From Athalassotoga saccharophila (GTDB taxonomy: Bacteria > Thermotogota > Thermotogae > Mesoaciditogales > Mesoaciditogaceae), in the NCBI RefSeq assembly GCF_009936215.1, contig NZ_AP019551.1:954708-1018707 (forward strand): 64,000 nucleotides of DNA, in the 5' to 3' direction. Each line of letters opens with the position of its first letter. The stretch's first letter is position 1. The position numbers were made by a program, and so were the translations under genes. The notes under the pieces were generated by a model. It ran no database searches, had not been told where the DNA came from, and worked only from the letters and a program-made list of their open reading frames with translations. This document shows positions 1,595 to 16,206 of this stretch, in pieces.

Positions 1595-4500
1595 TTAATA
1601 AATTACCTTTATTCCTCTACCTTCTAATTTGTTCACATTTGAGGCAAAGTCAGGTGATGAAGTAACCTGATTCCCGCTTATATCAACGATCGATCCGATC
1701 TTCAAATACATGTCATTTATTATTGCGTTCATTGAATTTATCTTGTTCGAAGAAAGATCAACTCTTAATAGGTATTTCATCGTTCCGAGAGGTGATGTAT
1801 CCGAGATTTTGTTTGAAGATAACTCTAATATCCATAGATCCGGTGCCGTCGAGACTATTGTGAAGTCAGACACGTCATTCGAATTGAGCATGAGCCATAT
1901 AAGATGAAGCATGCTGTTAAAGGAAGGCGTGTATTTGAGATTTATCCTGTTGAAGTTGAGATTAAGTATCTCGAGATTCGAAAGACTCAACAACGGAGAA
2001 ATGTCAGAAATGTTGTTTATTTCGAGATCAAGGAATTTTAAATTGTTAAGATTTTGCAACGGAGTAAGGTTGCTTATCATATTCGCTCCCGCATTTAACC
2101 ATTCGAGATTCTTCAAATTCGCCAGTGGACTTATATCCTTTATCATGTTCGAGTAAAGGAAGAGTTCTCTCAATCCAGTTAAACTTGCCAGGGGAGTTAT
2201 ATTCGTGAGTCTGTTAAAGCCGAGATCGAGAGATCTTAGAGATGAAAATTTGGACACAAAGGTTATTTGTGAACTGTCAAGGTTGAATCCGCTCATTCCA
2301 AGGTTGTGAAGTTGGGTCCAGTTCTCAATGAACTTCAATTGAGAGAAAGGAATCGGGTTATAACTTATATCGAGACTTAAAATAGATTGACCAAGGTCCT
2401 CTATCGGTGTTACATCGCTTATATGATTCGAACTTAAATCGAGAGATTCCAGATTCTTTAAGTTCTTTATCGCATTTATATTCTCGATATCATTCGAGGA
2501 GAGATTAAGCATTTTCAAAGAGGTAAGAGAGGCAAGAGGTGTTATGTCTGAAATTTCGTTGTGTGAAAGATCGAGACTTATCAAAGAAGTCATGGTCGAA
2601 AGAGCGCTTATATCCTTTATATGGTTGTAACTGAGATCGATCGATTTTAATTTTAATCCCTTCAAAGGTGATATATCGCTTATGTTGTTTCCAACAAGAT
2701 CAAGCGTTGCAAGATTGGTCAGATACTCTATTCCATCAAGGTTAGAAAGCATATTAGAATTCGAAGGCCAGTTATTCTTTATTTCAGTTATTTTCGAAAG
2801 TTCTGATTCGTAAAGAGGTCCTTCGGGAATATTGAGAATTGATCTGACTATGGATTCAAGTTGAGGATTGTTAAAAGTTACCTGCTTTCCCATGTTAACG
2901 GTGAAGGTAGCAACTTTTGAGGCTGTTGAAAGACCGCTTGCATTGCTTGTAACGACTATCCATGAATAGATTCCGGTGGGTAACTTTCCGAGATCAAGAT
3001 GTGTCTGCGTTGAGGATCCTATCTTTTTTATCCATTCGCCCATTCTTTCAAGGTAAAGTTCGTAAGTTCCGCCCGTAGATTCCCACGTCATTGTTACTTG
3101 AGTTGAGGTCGAAAGATCGGTTACTTTCGGTGAAATGGGAATGGCCGGAGATGGGTTGTATTCGAATTTTCCTATATCAGGCTTGATTACGGTCAGGGCC
3201 GATATGAATTTCCAAAGGTTATTTTCGTTAAGGTAATTTTCGAGTTTTATCATTCCAAGATTTCTGGCAAAGTAAAATTCTCTCTTAAGGTTATTGAGTA
3301 TCAAATCGACCTTTAGAACATCGTTGTACGTTTTGGTGCCAACAGAGAGAGAAAGGTAAGAAGAACTTCTCTCGTAAGAGGTACCCTGTGGGGACTTTAA
3401 AATGGCAGTGCCAGTTGCGTTTCCGATATTAGCGTTGTCTATCAAAGGTATTCCCCTGTAAAAGACAGTGGATCCAGCCTTCGTAACTTCAAATGAAAGG
3501 CTTTCCATCTGGCGCGGTTCTCCTTTGTAAGCCTGAGGAATAAGAATTTCATAATTGACGATAGTGGCATTCGTACTCGAAACTGTCAATCGAGACATTA
3601 TATCTTCTTTGATCGTGAAAGATGAAGAATTGGTTTGCTTTCCAAGGTTAAACCAGTGAGAATTGAAGAAATCTTCAAAAGCCCTTTGGACTGGATTAAT
3701 GGAAAGAGTATCAACAAGCGGGACTCCCGCCGAGATCTCAACTTGGTTGACCTGTTCTTTAAGAGGAAAGTAAGATCCAAATGCGCTCGTCATCTGAGAG
3801 ACTATATTCGAAAAGTCAGAATATCCCCATTTGTTGAATGCTCTTAACTTGAAAGTGTAGAGTGTTGATGATAAAAGATTCGTTGCCATGTAAGTTGTCA
3901 GAGAGGCAGGAAGGGTCTTTACAACGGAGGATTGGTTAGTGGACTGGTAGATTTCAAGTCCAGTTATATTTTTTGGATTCTTCCAAGAAAGGTTTATCGA
4001 GTTAGTAGAAAAATCCGTAACGCTCAAATTCGATGGTGGGAGTGGAGGAAGTCCATTGGTCATTTGAACAACAACGTTAGAAAATTGGGAATTTCCTCCC
4101 TTGTTCGATGCAATGATTTTGTAAGAGTAAGTGGTCTCGGGAGTAAGATTTTTGTCTGAATAATTGGAAATGTTTCCCTGCAATGTAGTTAATTGTGCAA
4201 ATGCACTATTCTTGATTGCCCTGTAAATGGTGAAATTATCGACTTTTTGACTTTCAGACCAGGAAAGGGAGATTGTATTCGTTGAAAAATTCGTTACGTT
4301 AAGTACCGGAGCCTGAGGGGGAAGCATCAAAGTCGTTGCAGAAGCAACGTTGGAAGGATTTGAAAGGCCGTACTGATTCTTTGCCTTTACCTGATAGAAA
4401 TACGTTGTTGAAGGATTAAGGCCTTTGTCCGTGTAACTCGTAGACTGTACGGTTGCCACTTCGGCAAAATTCCCGTTAGACAAACTTCTGTAAACGACAA

Positions 4501-4666
4501 AAGTCTTTGCCGTGCTATTCCACGTTAATTGAATCGAATTAGAACTCAATGCAGTTGCACTTAGATCTTTTGGTGCAGGTGCAACGAACATGGCACAACC
4601 TGCCAAAATCATAGCAATGGCAAGGACCGAAACTAATATTGCACCCCACAAACTTACCCTTTTCAA
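1595..4666 (-). CDS. Secreted lipoprotein with fibronectin type III repeats and an internalin-type leucine-rich repeat domain
   Basis: The protein has 1023 residues. Start: TTG at 4666 with ribosome site GGGGAGG about seven bases upstream; no better start is seen. A lipoprotein signal peptide ends in lipobox L-A-G-C (Cys24). Three Fn3-like domains follow at about 30-115, 117-205 and 209-297, with alternating patterns such as S-I-x-L-x-W and T-x-Y-x-Y-x-V-x-A. About 300-510 is an unrecognised domain. A fourth Fn3-like unit lies near 515-590. The C-terminal ~400 residues hold about 16-18 leucine-rich repeats of 22 residues of the form L-x-x-L-x-L-x-x-N-x-I-x-D-I-S-P-L. Such proteins sit outside the cytoplasmic membrane and bind proteins or glycans. 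The ligand is unknown. Confidence 0.85.
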   Translation of the reverse strand: MKRVSLWGAILVSVLAIAMILAGCAMFVAPAPKDLSATALSSNSIQLTWNSTAKTFVVYRSLSNGNFAEVATVQSTSYTDKGLNPSTTYFYQVKAKNQYGLSNPSNVASATTLMLPPQAPVLNVTNFSTNTISLSWSESQKVDNFTIYRAIKNSAFAQLTTLQGNISNYSDKNLTPETTYSYKIIASNKGGNSQFSNVVVQMTNGLPPLPPSNLSVTDFSTNSINLSWKNPKNITGLEIYQSTNQSSVVKTLPASLTTYMATNLLSSTLYTFKLRAFNKWGYSDFSNIVSQMTSAFGSYFPLKEQVNQVEISAGVPLVDTLSINPVQRAFEDFFNSHWFNLGKQTNSSSFTIKEDIMSRLTVSSTNATIVNYEILIPQAYKGEPRQMESLSFEVTKAGSTVFYRGIPLIDNANIGNATGTAILKSPQGTSYERSSSYLSLSVGTKTYNDVLKVDLILNNLKREFYFARNLGMIKLENYLNENNLWKFISALTVIKPDIGKFEYNPSPAIPISPKVTDLSTSTQVTMTWESTGGTYELYLERMGEWIKKIGSSTQTHLDLGKLPTGIYSWIVVTSNASGLSTASKVATFTVNMGKQVTFNNPQLESIVRSILNIPEGPLYESELSKITEIKNNWPSNSNMLSNLDGIEYLTNLATLDLVGNNISDISPLKGLKLKSIDLSYNHIKDISALSTMTSLISLDLSHNEISDITPLASLTSLKMLNLSSNDIENINAIKNLKNLESLDLSSNHISDVTPIEDLGQSILSLDISYNPIPFSQLKFIENWTQLHNLGMSGFNLDSSQITFVSKFSSLRSLDLGFNRLTNITPLASLTGLRELFLYSNMIKDISPLANLKNLEWLNAGANMISNLTPLQNLNNLKFLDLEINNISDISPLLSLSNLEILNLNFNRINLKYTPSFNSMLHLIWLMLNSNDVSDFTIVSTAPDLWILELSSNKISDTSPLGTMKYLLRVDLSSNKINSMNAIINDMYLKIGSIVDISGNQVTSSPDFASNVNKLEGRGIKVIY

Positions 4667-4733: not shown

Positions 4734-4760
4734 GATCAAAGATCTGAAAGATCTTTGATC
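4734..4760. terminator. Perfect 12-bp dyad across the aroKB stop codon
   Basis: GATCAAAGATCT, three-base loop, AGATCTTTGATC. The stem lies within the last codons and stop of aroKB. No U-tract follows on the minus strand, so it may be a weak terminator, an RNA-stabilising hairpin or a protein-binding dyad. Confidence 0.5.
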
Positions 4761-6178
4761 CAGATCTTTTCAAGGCGGGATCGACCTATCTCTTCAAGGA
4801 CGGGAATTATCAAAAAATCATTTTCTCTTTTTTTATCAGATTTTATCCAACTTTTCCAATTCGGGACCTCTTCGATCTTCAAATCAAGTGCGTCTAAGAA
4901 ATTCCTTATTCTTTGATTGAAGGCGGGAGAAAAAAGTTTCGATTCAATTATCATTCCCAAAGCGACGGCCCTTCCATGAGATATAGCGTTATTCGAGGCG
5001 CTTTCTATGCCATGGCCGACGGTATGACCGAAATTAAGAATGTGCCTTAATTCTTTGTCTTGAGGATCTTTAAATGTTATTTCGAGTTTATCCATGACAG
5101 ATCTTCTTATTATTTCATCAATAACCCTTAGATTTTTCAATTTTATCTTTTCAACTTTCTCTTCCATGTATTCAAAGAGAACTTTATCGTACACTATTCC
5201 GATCTTTGCGCTTTCGACGATTCCTTCCATGAATCTTTCATATTCGAGGCTTAACGCGTAAATTGGATCTATCAAAACGTCCGGTTTCCCAAATGATCCT
5301 ATCAAATTCTTTACTCCATTGAAGTTTATCGCGAATTTGCCTCCTACAGAGGCATCGACCATCCCCAAAAATGTTGTTGGAATAAGTTCAAAATTCATAC
5401 CTCTCATATAAGTTATACATGCGAATCCGGCCATATCTGTCAGGGTACCTCCCCCTGCAATTCTAACTTTAGAATTCCTGTTCAATTCCTTCGAATGAAA
5501 AAGATTCCAAATTCTTTGAACGTGTTGTAAATCTTTTGCGCCCTCACCATCGTCAAATTCGATTCCATCGAAGTCCCATATATTTTTGAAATTCTTTGAA
5601 ACAATCGAAAGATCAACCCCGTCCAATTTTTTGCCATGAAAAATTTCAACGTGCTGGTAAAGATCGAATTCGTCTATTTTCTCAAAGCCAACCAATTTGG
5701 CAACTATCTTTGCCATGATCTCTTCAACGTCGTGATAATTTGCATCAATGATCTCGAAATTCTCATAAATTGCCTTACGCCTTTCGAATCTTTTAAGAAA
5801 TCCTTCTTTTCCCTCCTTCACAAGAGGTCTGTCGCTTTGACTCACTCTTTTCCAGAGGATTTCGGGATCGACTTTGAGATAAAAGGTCTTCATGCTTTTT
5901 AGAATTTCAAGATTTTTCCTATTCTCTACGATCCCTCCTCCGGTTGAGATAACGATTCCTTCTTTTTTAGATACATCTTCTAAGATCTTTGTTTCTTGGG
6001 ATCTGAAATTTTCTTCTCCGTACCTTTTAAAATAATCTTCAATCTTTCCGTTAACCCTTTCAAATTCCGAATCAAGATCAACGTATTCCATCCCCAAAAC
6101 CTGCGCGATTCTTTTTCCAACGGTGCTCTTGCCACAGCCCATCATTCCAACAAGGGCTATTCTATTTTTGAAATTCAT
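4736..6178 (-). CDS. aroKB: Bifunctional shikimate kinase / 3-dehydroquinate synthase
   Basis: This 480-residue fusion carries out two shikimate-pathway steps. The N-terminal ~165 residues are shikimate kinase, with P-loop G-M-M-G-C-G-K-S-T at 11-19 and the shikimate-site S-T-G-G-G. The C-terminal part is the NAD- and zinc-dependent 3-dehydroquinate synthase: G-G-G-T-L-T-D near 243, the P-T-T-F-L-G-M-V-D-A-S-V-G-G-K motif, and metal ligands in H-I-L-N-F-G-H-T-V-G-H and S-H-G-R-A. The kinase-synthase order of the fusion is known from Thermotoga. It is the last gene of aroF-A-C-KB and overlaps aroC by 17 nt. aroE and aroD/aroQ are not in the window. Confidence 0.96.
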   Translation of the reverse strand: MNFKNRIALVGMMGCGKSTVGKRIAQVLGMEYVDLDSEFERVNGKIEDYFKRYGEENFRSQETKILEDVSKKEGIVISTGGGIVENRKNLEILKSMKTFYLKVDPEILWKRVSQSDRPLVKEGKEGFLKRFERRKAIYENFEIIDANYHDVEEIMAKIVAKLVGFEKIDEFDLYQHVEIFHGKKLDGVDLSIVSKNFKNIWDFDGIEFDDGEGAKDLQHVQRIWNLFHSKELNRNSKVRIAGGGTLTDMAGFACITYMRGMNFELIPTTFLGMVDASVGGKFAINFNGVKNLIGSFGKPDVLIDPIYALSLEYERFMEGIVESAKIGIVYDKVLFEYMEEKVEKIKLKNLRVIDEIIRRSVMDKLEITFKDPQDKELRHILNFGHTVGHGIESASNNAISHGRAVALGMIIESKLFSPAFNQRIRNFLDALDLKIEEVPNWKSWIKSDKKRENDFLIIPVLEEIGRSRLEKIWIKDLSDL

Positions 6179-7259
6179 CTATTCTCCTCCTGTAAGAAGA
6201 AAAATTGCCCTTTAGGTCTTCAAATGTAAATCCGCCAAATGAATCGATCAACTCATTCATAACGGCTGTCGCCACAACGGCCGTTGCGACGATGACAATG
6301 GCTCCAACAACGCATGTATCGGATCTTACGTAAGTTGTCTCACTCTCTTTCATGGTATCAAGGTCAACACTTTTAACGCCCTTTTTTTGAGTTGAAATGG
6401 GTTTGGCTATTAGATGAATGACGATATCCTGACCGTTTGTCATTCCTCCTTCTATTCCTCCGGCGTGATTTGTTTTTCTTCTTAATCCTTCGAAGATACT
6501 GTCTACTCCTTCATATCCCTTAACCTTCCATATATCCTCATCTCCAAAAATAACTCCCTTTACAGATGGAATATCAAAAAGCGCCCTGCCGATAACAGAT
6601 GTCAACCTTCTTTGTCTTTGCGTAAAAGTTCCTATTCCGGCGGGCATTCCCTTGACAATGACTGTAACCTTGCCACCAAGCGTGTACCCACCTTTGTAAG
6701 CCTCATTTATCATCTCGATCATCTTTTCTTCGGCCTTCTTATCGGGACATAACAATGGATGTTTACCTATCTCTGGCTCGTTATCGGCCATCAAATTCGT
6801 TTCTATCCCTCCAATGCCCTTTGTAAACCCGTAGACCTTTATCCCCAGACTCTCAAGGAATTGGCTGGCGAATTCGCCAATTGCGACATCCATTACAGTT
6901 CTTCTTGCGCTTGCCCTTTCGGTTATAATTCTTGTATCGTCAAAGTCGAATTTCATCATGCCTCCAAGATCGGCATGACCGGGTCGCGGTATAGAGGTTC
7001 TCTCATTTGGGGGCGTTAACGATCTGTTTGGTATAAAAAAAGTTATCGGTGATCCGGTAGTTTCTCCATTCCATAAACCTGTCTTTATCTCGACCTTGTC
7101 ATCTTCTATTTTCATTCTATCCCCACGACCGAAAACGGATTGCCTTAGCCTCAATCTGCTGTTTATCCTTTCAACGTCTATCTTAAAATGAGATGGGAAT
7201 CCCTCAATTATTCCGTAAAAACCATATCCGTGAGATTCTCCAGAGGTCATTATTTTCAT
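6162..7259 (-). CDS. aroC: Chorismate synthase
   Basis: The 365-residue protein matches the family length. It converts 5-enolpyruvylshikimate 3-phosphate to chorismate using reduced flavin. Signatures are G-E-S-H-G near the N-terminus, R-P-G-H-A-D-L-G and R-A-S-A-R-R-T (FMN and substrate binding), and the G-G-I-E-G-G-M-T-N-G segment. It overlaps aroA by 4 nt and aroKB by 17 nt, so translation is probably coupled through the whole aro operon. Confidence 0.97.
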   Translation of the reverse strand: MKIMTSGESHGYGFYGIIEGFPSHFKIDVERINSRLRLRQSVFGRGDRMKIEDDKVEIKTGLWNGETTGSPITFFIPNRSLTPPNERTSIPRPGHADLGGMMKFDFDDTRIITERASARRTVMDVAIGEFASQFLESLGIKVYGFTKGIGGIETNLMADNEPEIGKHPLLCPDKKAEEKMIEMINEAYKGGYTLGGKVTVIVKGMPAGIGTFTQRQRRLTSVIGRALFDIPSVKGVIFGDEDIWKVKGYEGVDSIFEGLRRKTNHAGGIEGGMTNGQDIVIHLIAKPISTQKKGVKSVDLDTMKESETTYVRSDTCVVGAIVIVATAVVATAVMNELIDSFGGFTFEDLKGNFSSYRRRIDEFQK

Positions 7260-8509
7260 CTTTCCACCTTCTCCAAATCTTCAAAAAATGACGGATAACT
7301 TATCGAAACCACTTTTGGATCTGTCAGTTCAACGCCATTTCCGCATAATCCCGCAATGGCTGCCATCATCGCTATTCTATGATCACCGTAAGGATCTATC
7401 TTGGCACCTTCTAATTTGGATCCTTCAACTTCAAACCCATCTTCAAATTCTTCTATATGAACGCCCATCTTGGAGAGAACGGAAACTATGGCCTTTATTC
7501 TGTCTGACTCTTTCTTTCTTAACTCAGACGCGCCCCTTACCACTGTTCTACCCTTTGCAAATACTCCCAAAAGGGCAATAAGAGGTATTTCGTCTATAAC
7601 AGACGGGATCTCTTCGTCAAGTACTTCGGTCCCCTCCAAATTAGAACTTTCGACGTGCAAGTCTCCGTAAGGCTCAAAATCGTTTTTAACGTTTCTTATT
7701 TCAATCTTTGCCCCCATTCTTTTTAAGACATTTAAAAATCCAGTCCTCGTTTCATTCAATCCAACATCTTTTATATCCAAAATGGCATTTCGATGACACA
7801 CGCCTAACGTTACAAAAAAGGCGGCCGAAGAAAAATCTCCGACAACCCTTGATTTGAATGATGGGATTATCGAAGGTTTTATCTCTATCAAATTTCCCTT
7901 CTTTATAGTTATTCCGAAGGCATTCAAAAATCTCTCGGTATGATCTCGGCTTGTAATTGGCTCTGTATAAGTTGAAACTCCATCACCGGCAGTCGCAGCG
8001 ATTATAAATGCACTTTTGACTTGGGCACTTGCGACCTTTGATCTGTAATTCGCGTGTTTTACGATGCCACCTCTTACGGAAATTGGAAGATTAGACGCTT
8101 CATTCCTTCCATCAAAGATCGATCCAAGCAGGGATAAAGGCTCTACAACTCTATCCATAGGTCTCGAAGAAAGAGATTCGTCTCCGTATATCACGGAAAA
8201 TAAAGGAAGTCTCGAAAGAAAACCAAGTCCCAATCTTGCCGTTGTTCCAGAGTTTCCGCAGAATATCGGCGAAATTGGCTCCGAAATTTTTTCCATTCGT
8301 ATAGAGAGTTTTCCTTTATTGTATTCAACGTCTGATCCAACGTTTTTGACAAGATCTAAAGTTCTCAAAGTATCATCGGCCATCAAAGGATTTTCGATCT
8401 CGCATCTGTCTTTCGCCATGGCGGCAAAGAAGATCATCCTGTGCGTTATAGATTTATCAGGCGGGACTTTGATCTCTCCCCTTATACTTTTTGCAGGCTG
8501 TATTTTCAT
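7256..8509 (-). CDS. aroA: 3-phosphoshikimate 1-carboxyvinyltransferase (EPSP synthase)
   Basis: The protein has 417 residues, typical for the family. It joins phosphoenolpyruvate to shikimate 3-phosphate. Visible motifs are P-P-D-K-S-I-T-H-R at residues 16-24 (phosphate and PEP binding), G-N-S-G-T-T-A-R-L near 83 (PEP loop), the R-D-H-T-E-R segment, L-R-x-K-E-S-D-R-I near 340, and D-P-Y-G-D-H-R-I-A-M near 375. It overlaps both neighbours by 4 nt (aroF upstream, aroC downstream). Confidence 0.97.
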   Translation of the reverse strand: MKIQPAKSIRGEIKVPPDKSITHRMIFFAAMAKDRCEIENPLMADDTLRTLDLVKNVGSDVEYNKGKLSIRMEKISEPISPIFCGNSGTTARLGLGFLSRLPLFSVIYGDESLSSRPMDRVVEPLSLLGSIFDGRNEASNLPISVRGGIVKHANYRSKVASAQVKSAFIIAATAGDGVSTYTEPITSRDHTERFLNAFGITIKKGNLIEIKPSIIPSFKSRVVGDFSSAAFFVTLGVCHRNAILDIKDVGLNETRTGFLNVLKRMGAKIEIRNVKNDFEPYGDLHVESSNLEGTEVLDEEIPSVIDEIPLIALLGVFAKGRTVVRGASELRKKESDRIKAIVSVLSKMGVHIEEFEDGFEVEGSKLEGAKIDPYGDHRIAMMAAIAGLCGNGVELTDPKVVSISYPSFFEDLEKVER

Positions 8510-9513
8510 ATTTCCTCCATCACCCTGATCAATTCCATTGATGAGTCGTAGGTTTTATAAAACTCTTCAAAATTAAGGCTTTGCTGGCCATCTGAAAGTG
8601 CCTTTTCTGGATTTTCGTGAACTTCGATCATCACTCCATCGGCGCCCGCGGCAACAACTGCTTTGGAAAGAGGTGGAATTAGATCTCGCCTGCCGGTTGC
8701 GTGGCTTAGATCCACTATAATTGGAAGGTGTGAAAGTATTTTTACAAGTGGAACGGCGGCGATATCGAGAGTGTTTCTTGTGTACTTTTCGAAAGTCCTT
8801 ATGCCCCTCTCACACAATATTATCTTTGAATTTCCATGATAGTAAAGATACTCGGCGGCCAAAAGCCATTCCTCTATCGTTGACATGAATCCACGCTTTA
8901 AAATGACCGGTTTCGTTGAATGGCCCACTTTTTCGAGTAATCTGTAATTTTGCATGTTTCTTGTTCCTATCTGGATAACATCGACGTATTCCTCAAATAA
9001 AGGAAGATCCTCTGGAGACATCATTTCGCTTACGACCTTCATGTTGTATTGATCCCCAACTTCCCGAAGAATTTTTAGTCCTTCAACGCCAAGGCCCTGA
9101 AATGAATACGGGGAAGTTCTTGGCTTAAATGCACCTCCTCTTAAGAATTTAACTCCAAGATTTGACAAAAACTCGGCCTCTCTTTGCATTTGATCTCTCG
9201 ATTCTACGGCACATGGACCGGCTATGAATTGAAATCTATCTCCTATCTTTTCATCACCGCATTCGATAACTGTCTTTTCCGGATGAAATTCTCTCGAGAC
9301 GAGTTTAAATGGCTTTAGGACGGGAATAACCTCTTCTACGCAATTTAAGGCTTCAAAGGCTTCTCTCCTTTCGTAAACCTTTTCGCCTATTATTCCGACG
9401 ATCGTCTTTTCTGCACCTTTTGAGATATTCGTCTCAAAATTGAAACTCTTTGCAAGTTCCACAACCCTTCTCAAATCTTCCTCAGACGCCTTCGCTTTCA
9501 TCACTATTATCAT
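8506..9513 (-). CDS. aroF: 3-deoxy-7-phosphoheptulonate (DAHP) synthase, type Ibeta with N-terminal regulatory domain
   Basis: The enzyme condenses phosphoenolpyruvate and erythrose 4-phosphate, the first committed aromatic step. The first ~65 residues form a ferredoxin-like/ACT-type domain, as in the Thermotoga maritima enzyme where it mediates Tyr/Phe feedback. The TIM-barrel domain carries G-P-C-A-V-E-S, R-G-G-A-F-K-P-R-T-S-P-Y, V-I-L-K-R-G and V-D-L-S-H-A-T-G-R-R metal and phosphate motifs. It opens the aro operon behind an attenuator whose leader peptide contains Tyr-Trp-Tyr-Tyr, so both enzyme activity and transcription probably respond to aromatic amino acids. Start ATG at 9513 with AAGGAGG. 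Confidence 0.96.
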   Translation of the reverse strand: MIIVMKAKASEEDLRRVVELAKSFNFETNISKGAEKTIVGIIGEKVYERREAFEALNCVEEVIPVLKPFKLVSREFHPEKTVIECGDEKIGDRFQFIAGPCAVESRDQMQREAEFLSNLGVKFLRGGAFKPRTSPYSFQGLGVEGLKILREVGDQYNMKVVSEMMSPEDLPLFEEYVDVIQIGTRNMQNYRLLEKVGHSTKPVILKRGFMSTIEEWLLAAEYLYYHGNSKIILCERGIRTFEKYTRNTLDIAAVPLVKILSHLPIIVDLSHATGRRDLIPPLSKAVVAAGADGVMIEVHENPEKALSDGQQSLNFEEFYKTYDSSMELIRVMEEI

Positions 9514-9526
9514 TCGATGACCTCCT

Positions 9527-9601
9527 TAAAAAAATTTCGGGGACCTTTTAAGTCCCCGATTTATGATATGCTAAATTACGGCCTGCACACCATAAACCGG
9601 G
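9527..9601 (-). promoter_or_regulatory. Transcription attenuator before aroF
   Basis: On the minus strand a terminator stem CGGGGAC/GTCCCCG (9558-9538) is followed by a U-rich run (to about 9527). An alternative pairing competes: CCCGGTTTATG (9601-9591, inside the leader ORF) can pair over 11 bases, one of them G-U, with CATAAATCGGG (9565-9555), which overlaps the 5' arm of the terminator. A ribosome stalled at the Tyr/Trp codons would leave the first segment free and favour the antiterminator. A ribosome reading through would mask it and allow termination. Confidence 0.85.
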
Positions 9602-9644
9602 CGCATCCGTAATACCAGTAATTTCCTGAAAGTAGAACCGTCAT
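9576..9644 (-). CDS. aro operon leader peptide (22 residues, Tyr-Trp-Tyr-Tyr)
   Basis: ATG at 9644 has ribosome site GGAGG seven bases upstream. The peptide contains GNYWYYGCARF and stops with TAA at 9576. Four consecutive aromatic codons (TAC TGG TAT TAC) lie two codons before the antiterminator segment. A Phe codon follows five codons after the run. The placement is that of a stalling peptide. Confidence 0.85.
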   Translation of the reverse strand: MTVLLSGNYWYYGCARFMVCRP

Positions 9645-9673
9645 CTGATACCTCCACGATACATATTGAAATT

Positions 9674-9682
9674 ATTTTACCA
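9674..9682 (-). promoter_or_regulatory. Probable extended -10 promoter of the aro operon
   Basis: Minus strand TGG-TAAAAT (9682-9674), with a possible -35 TTGGCA at 9704-9699 (19-bp spacer). The predicted start near 9667 is about 23 nt before the leader ATG. No terminator is seen between trpG and this site, so trp read-through into aro is also possible. Confidence 0.55.
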
Positions 9683-9743
9683 TAAAATGTTTTTAAAATG
9701 CCAAATACCACGTTTTGATATTAAAAATTAAATTTATAGCAAA

Positions 9744-16065: not shown

Positions 16066-16151
16066 TATAAAAAAATCGGGGATCTTTTTGAAGATCCCCG
16101 ATGCTGAATACCATTTATGGCAAAATGATACCCTCACCCTTCAGCATCGGG
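16066..16151 (-). promoter_or_regulatory. Transcription attenuator before trpD
   Basis: On the minus strand a perfect 12-bp stem (16102-16091 with 16086-16075) and a U-rich run down to about 16069 form an intrinsic terminator. CCCGATGCTGAA (16151-16140) is exactly complementary to TTCAGCATCGGG (16108-16097), which includes the 5' arm of the terminator, so antiterminator and terminator exclude each other. The leader stop codon TGA (16143-16141) lies inside the first antiterminator arm. A ribosome that reaches the stop therefore masks it. Confidence 0.92.
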
Positions 16152-16206
16152 TGCGGTACCACCACCAATTGTTGTTCAAAAATGACTTTAAATTTAAATT
16201 ACTCAT
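16141..16206 (-). CDS. trpL: trp leader peptide (21 residues with Trp-Trp-Trp)
   Basis: ATG at 16206 follows ribosome site AAGGTGAT. The peptide ends NNNWWWYRTRC and stops at TGA 16141. The three tandem TGG codons (16167-16159) lie just before the antiterminator arm. With scarce charged tRNA-Trp, ribosomes stall there and expose the arm. Confidence 0.92.
   Translation of the reverse strand: MSNLNLKSFLNNNWWWYRTRC

Follow-up and report, generated by a model that had tools for sequence, protein, structure and literature searches.

Athalassotoga saccharophila is a hot-spring bacterium of the Thermotogota, family Mesoaciditogaceae. In the window analysed here (the whole stretch of 64,000 nucleotides) its minus strand carries trpD-C-F-B-A-E-G, then a gap, and then aroF, aroA, aroC and a putative aroKB; trpC, F, B, A and aroKB are named by sequence only. 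The gap preceding aroF contains a leader-peptide gene and the hairpins described below (Table 1). The four aro genes would form the operon under the control of this leader, and aroA (TIGR01356) and aroC (NF003793 and TIGR00033) are assigned by family matches. AroF, which catalyses the first step in the synthesis of aromatic amino acids, combines a PF00793 barrel with a PF18152 regulatory domain (E = 5e-22), as in DAHP synthases of the Thermotoga maritima type, and its nearest solved structure is the T. maritima enzyme (1RZM/3PG9). Of the T. maritima residues Ser31 and His29, which we take to be tyrosine ligands, the former is retained and the latter replaced by Asn. Feedback inhibition of AroF is therefore likely, given the regulatory domain, the structural match and the conserved serine; the ACT-like (ferredoxin-like) domain that the initial annotation had expected on the enzyme is indeed present. 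Directly downstream of the aro operon (1595-4666, minus strand), a 1023-aa protein resembles a lipoprotein with fibronectin-type and then leucine-rich repeats, as read by eye.

Table 1. Features of the aroF and trp leader regions in the window.
Feature	Position	Strand	Description
Putative aroF-operon promoter	9674..9704	-	TTGGCA, 19-nt spacer, TAAAAT preceded by TG; read from the sequence
Leader ribosome site GGAGG	9651..9655 (9655-9651)	-	6 nt 5' of the ATG at 9644-9642
Leader peptide gene	9576..9644	-	22 codons, MTVLLSGNYWYYGCARFMVCRP, plus TAA 9578-9576; homologues in 10/10 family genomes
Sensor codons Tyr-Trp-Tyr-Tyr	9609..9620 (9620-9609)	-	TAC TGG TAT TAC
Hairpin 1:2, pause / anti-antiterminator	9575..9613	-	9613-9607 with 9581-9575, plus inner pairs
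Antiterminator 2:3	9555..9601	-	17 contiguous pairs including G-U, 9601-9585 with 9571-9555
Intrinsic terminator 3:4	9528..9559	-	Arms 9559-9550 and 9546-9537; 7-U tail 9534-9528
aroF ribosome site AAGGAGG	9527-9521	-	Directly 3' of the U-run; aroF ATG at 9513
aroF	8506..9513	-	DAHP synthase type I-beta with N-terminal ferredoxin-like regulatory domain; PF00793, PF18152, NF006421
aroA, aroC, tentative fused aroKB	4736..8509	-	Abut or overlap one another and aroF
Attenuator of the trp genes	16075..16206	-	Peptide MSNLNLKSFLNNNWWWYRTRC 16206-16141; terminator 16102-16075

Transcription of the leader would start from a putative promoter that is weak and whose spacer exceeds the limit of the consensus scan, so that it is absent from the promoter-scan list. 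The TTGGCA-19-TAAAAT type of arrangement is repeated in one further genome (G001), and another (G003) has TTGACT-16-TAAAAT. The encoded peptide consists of MTVLLSGN, the run YWYY and a GCARFMVCRP tail, and homologues also occur in most leader-bearing Thermotogota. The sequence TAYTGGTAYTAY is found at two places only in the 2.04-Mb genome. The last two Tyr codons lie within the 5' arm of hairpin 1:2. Positions 9559-9555 are common to antiterminator and terminator, the last five bases of the former helix being the first five of the latter. The region thereby shows the hallmarks of an attenuator, namely a ribosome site with a short ORF predicted to be translated, a run of codons for end products of the pathway, and mutually exclusive hairpins. 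The GGAGG site, the leader peptide, the TAC TGG TAT TAC codons and the U-tailed terminator are all present, as the initial annotation had described; its antiterminator does overlap the terminator, with a length of 17 bp and not 11. None of 3000 shuffles produced a helix of 17 bp with the terminator arm (mean 5.3, maximum 14), and the minimum free energy of the leader has a z-score of -3.5. Among the short ORFs of the 64-kb window, only those of the aroF leader and the trp leader combine a ribosome site, three or more aromatic codons in a run and a terminator downstream.

We propose that this leader is a ribosome-mediated transcription attenuator of the aroF operon that senses the charging of tRNA-Tyr and, here, of tRNA-Trp, and we put the probability of this reading at about 0.86. 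With Tyr and Trp plentiful, the ribosome would pass the YWYY codons, reach the stop codon at 9578 and cover segment 2; the terminator (9559-9537) would then form, and few transcripts would extend into aroF. If Tyr or Trp were scarce, the ribosome would stall at TAC TGG TAT TAC and open the 1:2 hairpin. The freed segment 2 (9601-9585) would pair with segment 3 (9571-9555), taking up the 5' arm of the terminator, and aroF would be transcribed. Stalling, the efficiency of termination and the response to each amino acid are thus predicted properties of the leader.

The mechanism was examined in nascent folds, for which the transcript was cut at the point where the 5' arm of the terminator has just been synthesised. 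In the window leader the predicted sequestration of this arm was 0.61, 0.57, 0.50 and 0.30 for ribosomes stalled at Y, W, Y and Y, and only 0.02 for a ribosome at the stop codon, a stall-versus-stop difference that 20% of shuffled leaders match when the window is taken alone. Over the whole set, sequestration was clearly higher on stalling than at the stop codon in 35 of 46 leaders, with the reverse in one, and the mean difference was 0.46 as compared to 0.19 in a control with shuffled spacers. Without a ribosome, the nascent RNA of the window leader is predicted to be half sequestered (0.57), unlike the E. coli trp leader, which is superattenuated. Equilibrium folds of the complete leader favour the terminator in nearly all ribosome states, and in every one for the window; the argument for attenuation therefore needs co-transcriptional folding.

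Comparison among relatives reveals that the arrangement is conserved. Every one of the ten family genomes has aroF, as do 59 of the 103 phylum genomes. A Tyr-rich aromatic run and both hairpins are kept ahead of aroF in each of the ten family genomes, and none retains the hairpins without the codons, the pattern that had been named beforehand as speaking against attenuation. Phylum-wide, 39 of 57 upstream stretches contain, after a ribosome site, a short ORF whose aromatic run comprises three codons or more (for example YYYY, YYYFWF, YYYYYWF, YYWYF, FWFYY and YYYYY); shuffled stretches gave such a leader in a mean of 2.05 and a maximum of 6 of 57. Since the Tyr codons alternate between TAT and TAC from one leader to another, it is the amino acid that is conserved. 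In an alignment of the ten family aroF leaders and the trp leader, 94% of the cells of a shared 13-bp antiterminator core are paired and six pairs have changed on both sides; no shuffle reaches this pairing, and sliding the alignment by one column abolishes it. For the terminator, 96% of cells are paired and three pairs have changed on both sides; here too no shuffle does as well, and a one-column slide abolishes pairing.

Several leaders depart from this scheme in position or layout. Where aroF lies second behind aroH, the leader precedes aroH in two of the three cases examined closely (G011 and G100; EYYYYFRWGVYP and NGFWFYSYDGTCP). The same check for aroF as second gene of an operon gave no explanation for the leaderless aroF of G013, G037, G045 and G052. 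In G009 (L010 / L120) the aroF frame is broken by an in-frame TAA and the leader is intact, which may reflect an error in sequencing or decay of the gene. A group of aroF leaders of the Thermotoga-type, f10 and f11 (L012-L018, L020) reads YYYFWF or YYYYWF and has a different layout. In the Thermotoga-type leaders segment 3 has two possible partners, segment 2 and the 5' half of the terminator itself. The f10 and f11 leaders appear to be built of five segments, with segment 1, and not segment 2, as the part that a ribosome at the stop codon would block.

Two other kinds of regulation have to be weighed against attenuation by a translating ribosome. T-boxes, TRAP or TyrR control aromatic genes in other bacteria, and the aroF leader might by analogy be a riboswitch, a T-box or a protein-binding attenuator whose ORF is a by-product of RNA structure. 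An Rfam scan of the whole window, however, matched one tRNA and no leader family (Trp_leader or other) above the gathering score; moreover, the Tyr codons show synonymous variation and for the most part precede the antiterminator, and the identity of the codons follows the pathway content of the genome (see below). We therefore regard such a device as the least credible of the explanations considered. Hardly less improbable is an action of the uORF on the translation of aroF (through coupling or through reinitiation) or on the stability of the RNA, with an incidental terminator. Reinitiation after leader peptides has been proposed to be widespread (PMC4833913), and the ribosome site of aroF immediately follows the U-run. 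Against this stand the strong terminator within the 62 nt between the stop codon of the leader and the start of aroF, and the conservation of both exclusive helices with compensatory changes, which would be superfluous for coupling.

Tyr is the constant element of the run in every lineage, so we asked how the remaining codons relate to the biosynthetic genes, scanning 103 genomes for the markers trpC (PF00218), pheA (PF00800) and tyrA (PF02153). As the run we took the largest cluster of aromatic residues with no gap above one residue, choosing the last where clusters tied; this rule was fixed in the script before counting and after the leaders had been seen and the pattern suspected. On this definition 27 of 46 leaders had both Trp in the run and trpC in the genome, none had Trp only, two had trpC only and 17 had neither (Fisher 1e-10). 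The two exceptions, G002 and G003, are congeners with trp genes and the run YYYY. On an AroF tree, from which G009 was left out because its in-frame stop made a false long branch, the association reached phi = 0.91, a value attained by none of 3000 simulated leader histories and none of 3000 genome histories; several of the codon and pathway changes involve whole operons that possibly moved together, and draft genomes may miss real genes. If a Trp at any place in the peptide is counted, the association weakens to a Fisher p of 0.003, owing to a conserved FSW before the Tyr run of the f6 leaders and to a Trp after the run in two f7 leaders. The f6 leaders (L027, L029-L034) carry FSWINA at this place in genomes without trp genes. 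Phe codons follow pheA more weakly (25/3/6/12, p about 0.005); Trp and Phe codons are intercorrelated, as are trp and pheA, and the two tests are not independent.

Individual genomes illustrate the pattern. A. saccharophila itself has trp genes and tyrA and no PF00800 (pheA) match, and its run contains Trp and no Phe. Two congeners with alignable leaders differ in the same sense, G007 (FEYNFWYYHRTRFMVCEV) having FWYY with trp and phe genes, and G008 (SEYNYGYYQRTRFVVCEV) YGYY with neither. In a further alignable pair, NNYYWYFSKTPILVPLF carries YYWYF in a genome with both pathways, whereas NEYYYYYCSTPILVPLR carries YYYYY in genomes lacking both (G071/G073). In these latter genomes (leaders L043 and L059) aroF was probably transferred, since gene and leader are nested within the clade of another family, and the leader would have lost its Trp and Phe codons.

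These data bear on a third alternative, in which the attenuator responds to Tyr only and the Trp codon is a tolerated change in the Tyr run without regulatory weight. We consider it unlikely, though clearly less so than the two alternatives above. It would account for the constancy of Tyr in every lineage and for YYYY in G002 and G003 despite their trp genes. It also has a precedent in the AroR leader peptide of Corynebacterium glutamicum, which contains Phe-Tyr-Phe and is reported to respond to Phe and not to Tyr (Neshat et al. 2014; PMC11802643). However, a change from Tyr to Trp takes two base changes via a stop or a Cys codon, all genomes with Trp in the run have trp genes (27/27), and no run contains Trp in the genomes without them (17/17). 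In addition, the Trp codon of the window leader is shared with one sister species in which the upstream peptide has diverged (MTVLLSGN versus MAVRFSEN). The mixed Tyr/Trp sensing suggested in the initial annotation thus gains support from the match of Trp codons to trp genes. Taken across the phylum, we find it reasonably probable that the aroF leaders act as an OR-gate on the aromatic amino acids that a cell makes, with Tyr always, Trp where trp genes are present and Phe usually with pheA, and that the codon set is re-tuned when a pathway is gained, lost or moved.

The trp genes of the window have an attenuator of their own, whose peptide motif NNNWWWYRTRC is kept in all four congeners. As the trp leader aligns with the aroF leader over both antiterminator and terminator, the two look like duplicates. 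Using a covariance model built from the family leaders to find further copies, we detected a third one in this genome, outside the window (L225, G000:C1:897603-897701, minus strand), which contains WWWYRPWC and lies ahead of a TrpB2-type gene. A trpB2 leader with WWW also occurs in G004, G005, G006 and G008, four genomes that lack the trp operon and carry no Trp codon in their aroF leaders. Retention of WWW at trpB2 means that the missing Trp codon at aroF does not reflect a general loss of Trp sensing; its absence fits with the inability of DAHP synthase to supply Trp without the trp pathway.

The mechanism is of a known kind, ribosome-mediated attenuation as in the E. coli trpL and pheL leaders (RF00513 and relatives). 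Our case differs from these in its codons (Tyr, with Trp, and not Trp or Phe alone), in the regulated gene, which encodes DAHP synthase, in the phylum and in the lack of an Rfam match. Leader peptides that sense several end products are found in E. coli ahead of ilvGMEDA (Leu, Ile, Val) and the thr operon (Thr, Ile), in branched-chain or threonine pathways and not in an aromatic one. We found no report that the codon set of these leaders follows the pathway genes from species to species, and the match seen across Thermotogota leaders is unusual. To our knowledge, few of the leader peptides described so far respond mainly to tyrosine. A search of the open literature, which left most subscription journals outside its scope, found no description of a Thermotogota aroF leader; earlier work by Lopatovskaya and colleagues (2010) may cover Thermotogae, so that a previous mention may exist. 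The nearest described case is the C. glutamicum aroR leader mentioned above, which also attenuates a DAHP-synthase operon with mixed aromatic codons. The likeness drawn here is one of operon and codon type, and the run in our leaders is based on Tyr, here with Trp and no Phe. A uORF upstream of aroF (uORFC-13-1) has been predicted in Acholeplasma only (PMC8632094). It resembles our leader in the predicted combination of a uORF and a terminator before a DAHP-synthase gene and differs in its Phe codons, as against Tyr/Trp here. In 1980 a Tyr-tRNA attenuator was put forward as a hypothesis for E. coli aroF (cited in PMC2659441 and PMC8632094). A 2010 survey described leader peptides as known only from Proteobacteria and Actinobacteria and then added Firmicutes (PMC2965389).

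Outside the phylum, 80 DAHP-synthase loci yielded seven uORFs with an aromatic run, overall not far above chance. Four leaders from delta-proteobacteria / Syntrophales (L145, L152, L157, L158) look real, judging from a common VCP tail. Long mixed runs such as YFWYFYF, YWFSYFYF and YWFYTYF make them candidate mixed aromatic leaders beyond the Thermotogota.

Overall, aromatic synthesis in this deep-branching and mostly thermophilic phylum appears to be controlled mainly by attenuation, with Tyr as the principal signal. The tracking of pathway genes by sensor codons provides a natural experiment on how a leader peptide is re-tuned after genes are lost or transferred. If the proposed OR-gate is true, the leader peptide would be a readable record of biosynthetic capacity, and about 70 bases of DNA might serve as a cheap predictor of aromatic auxotrophy.
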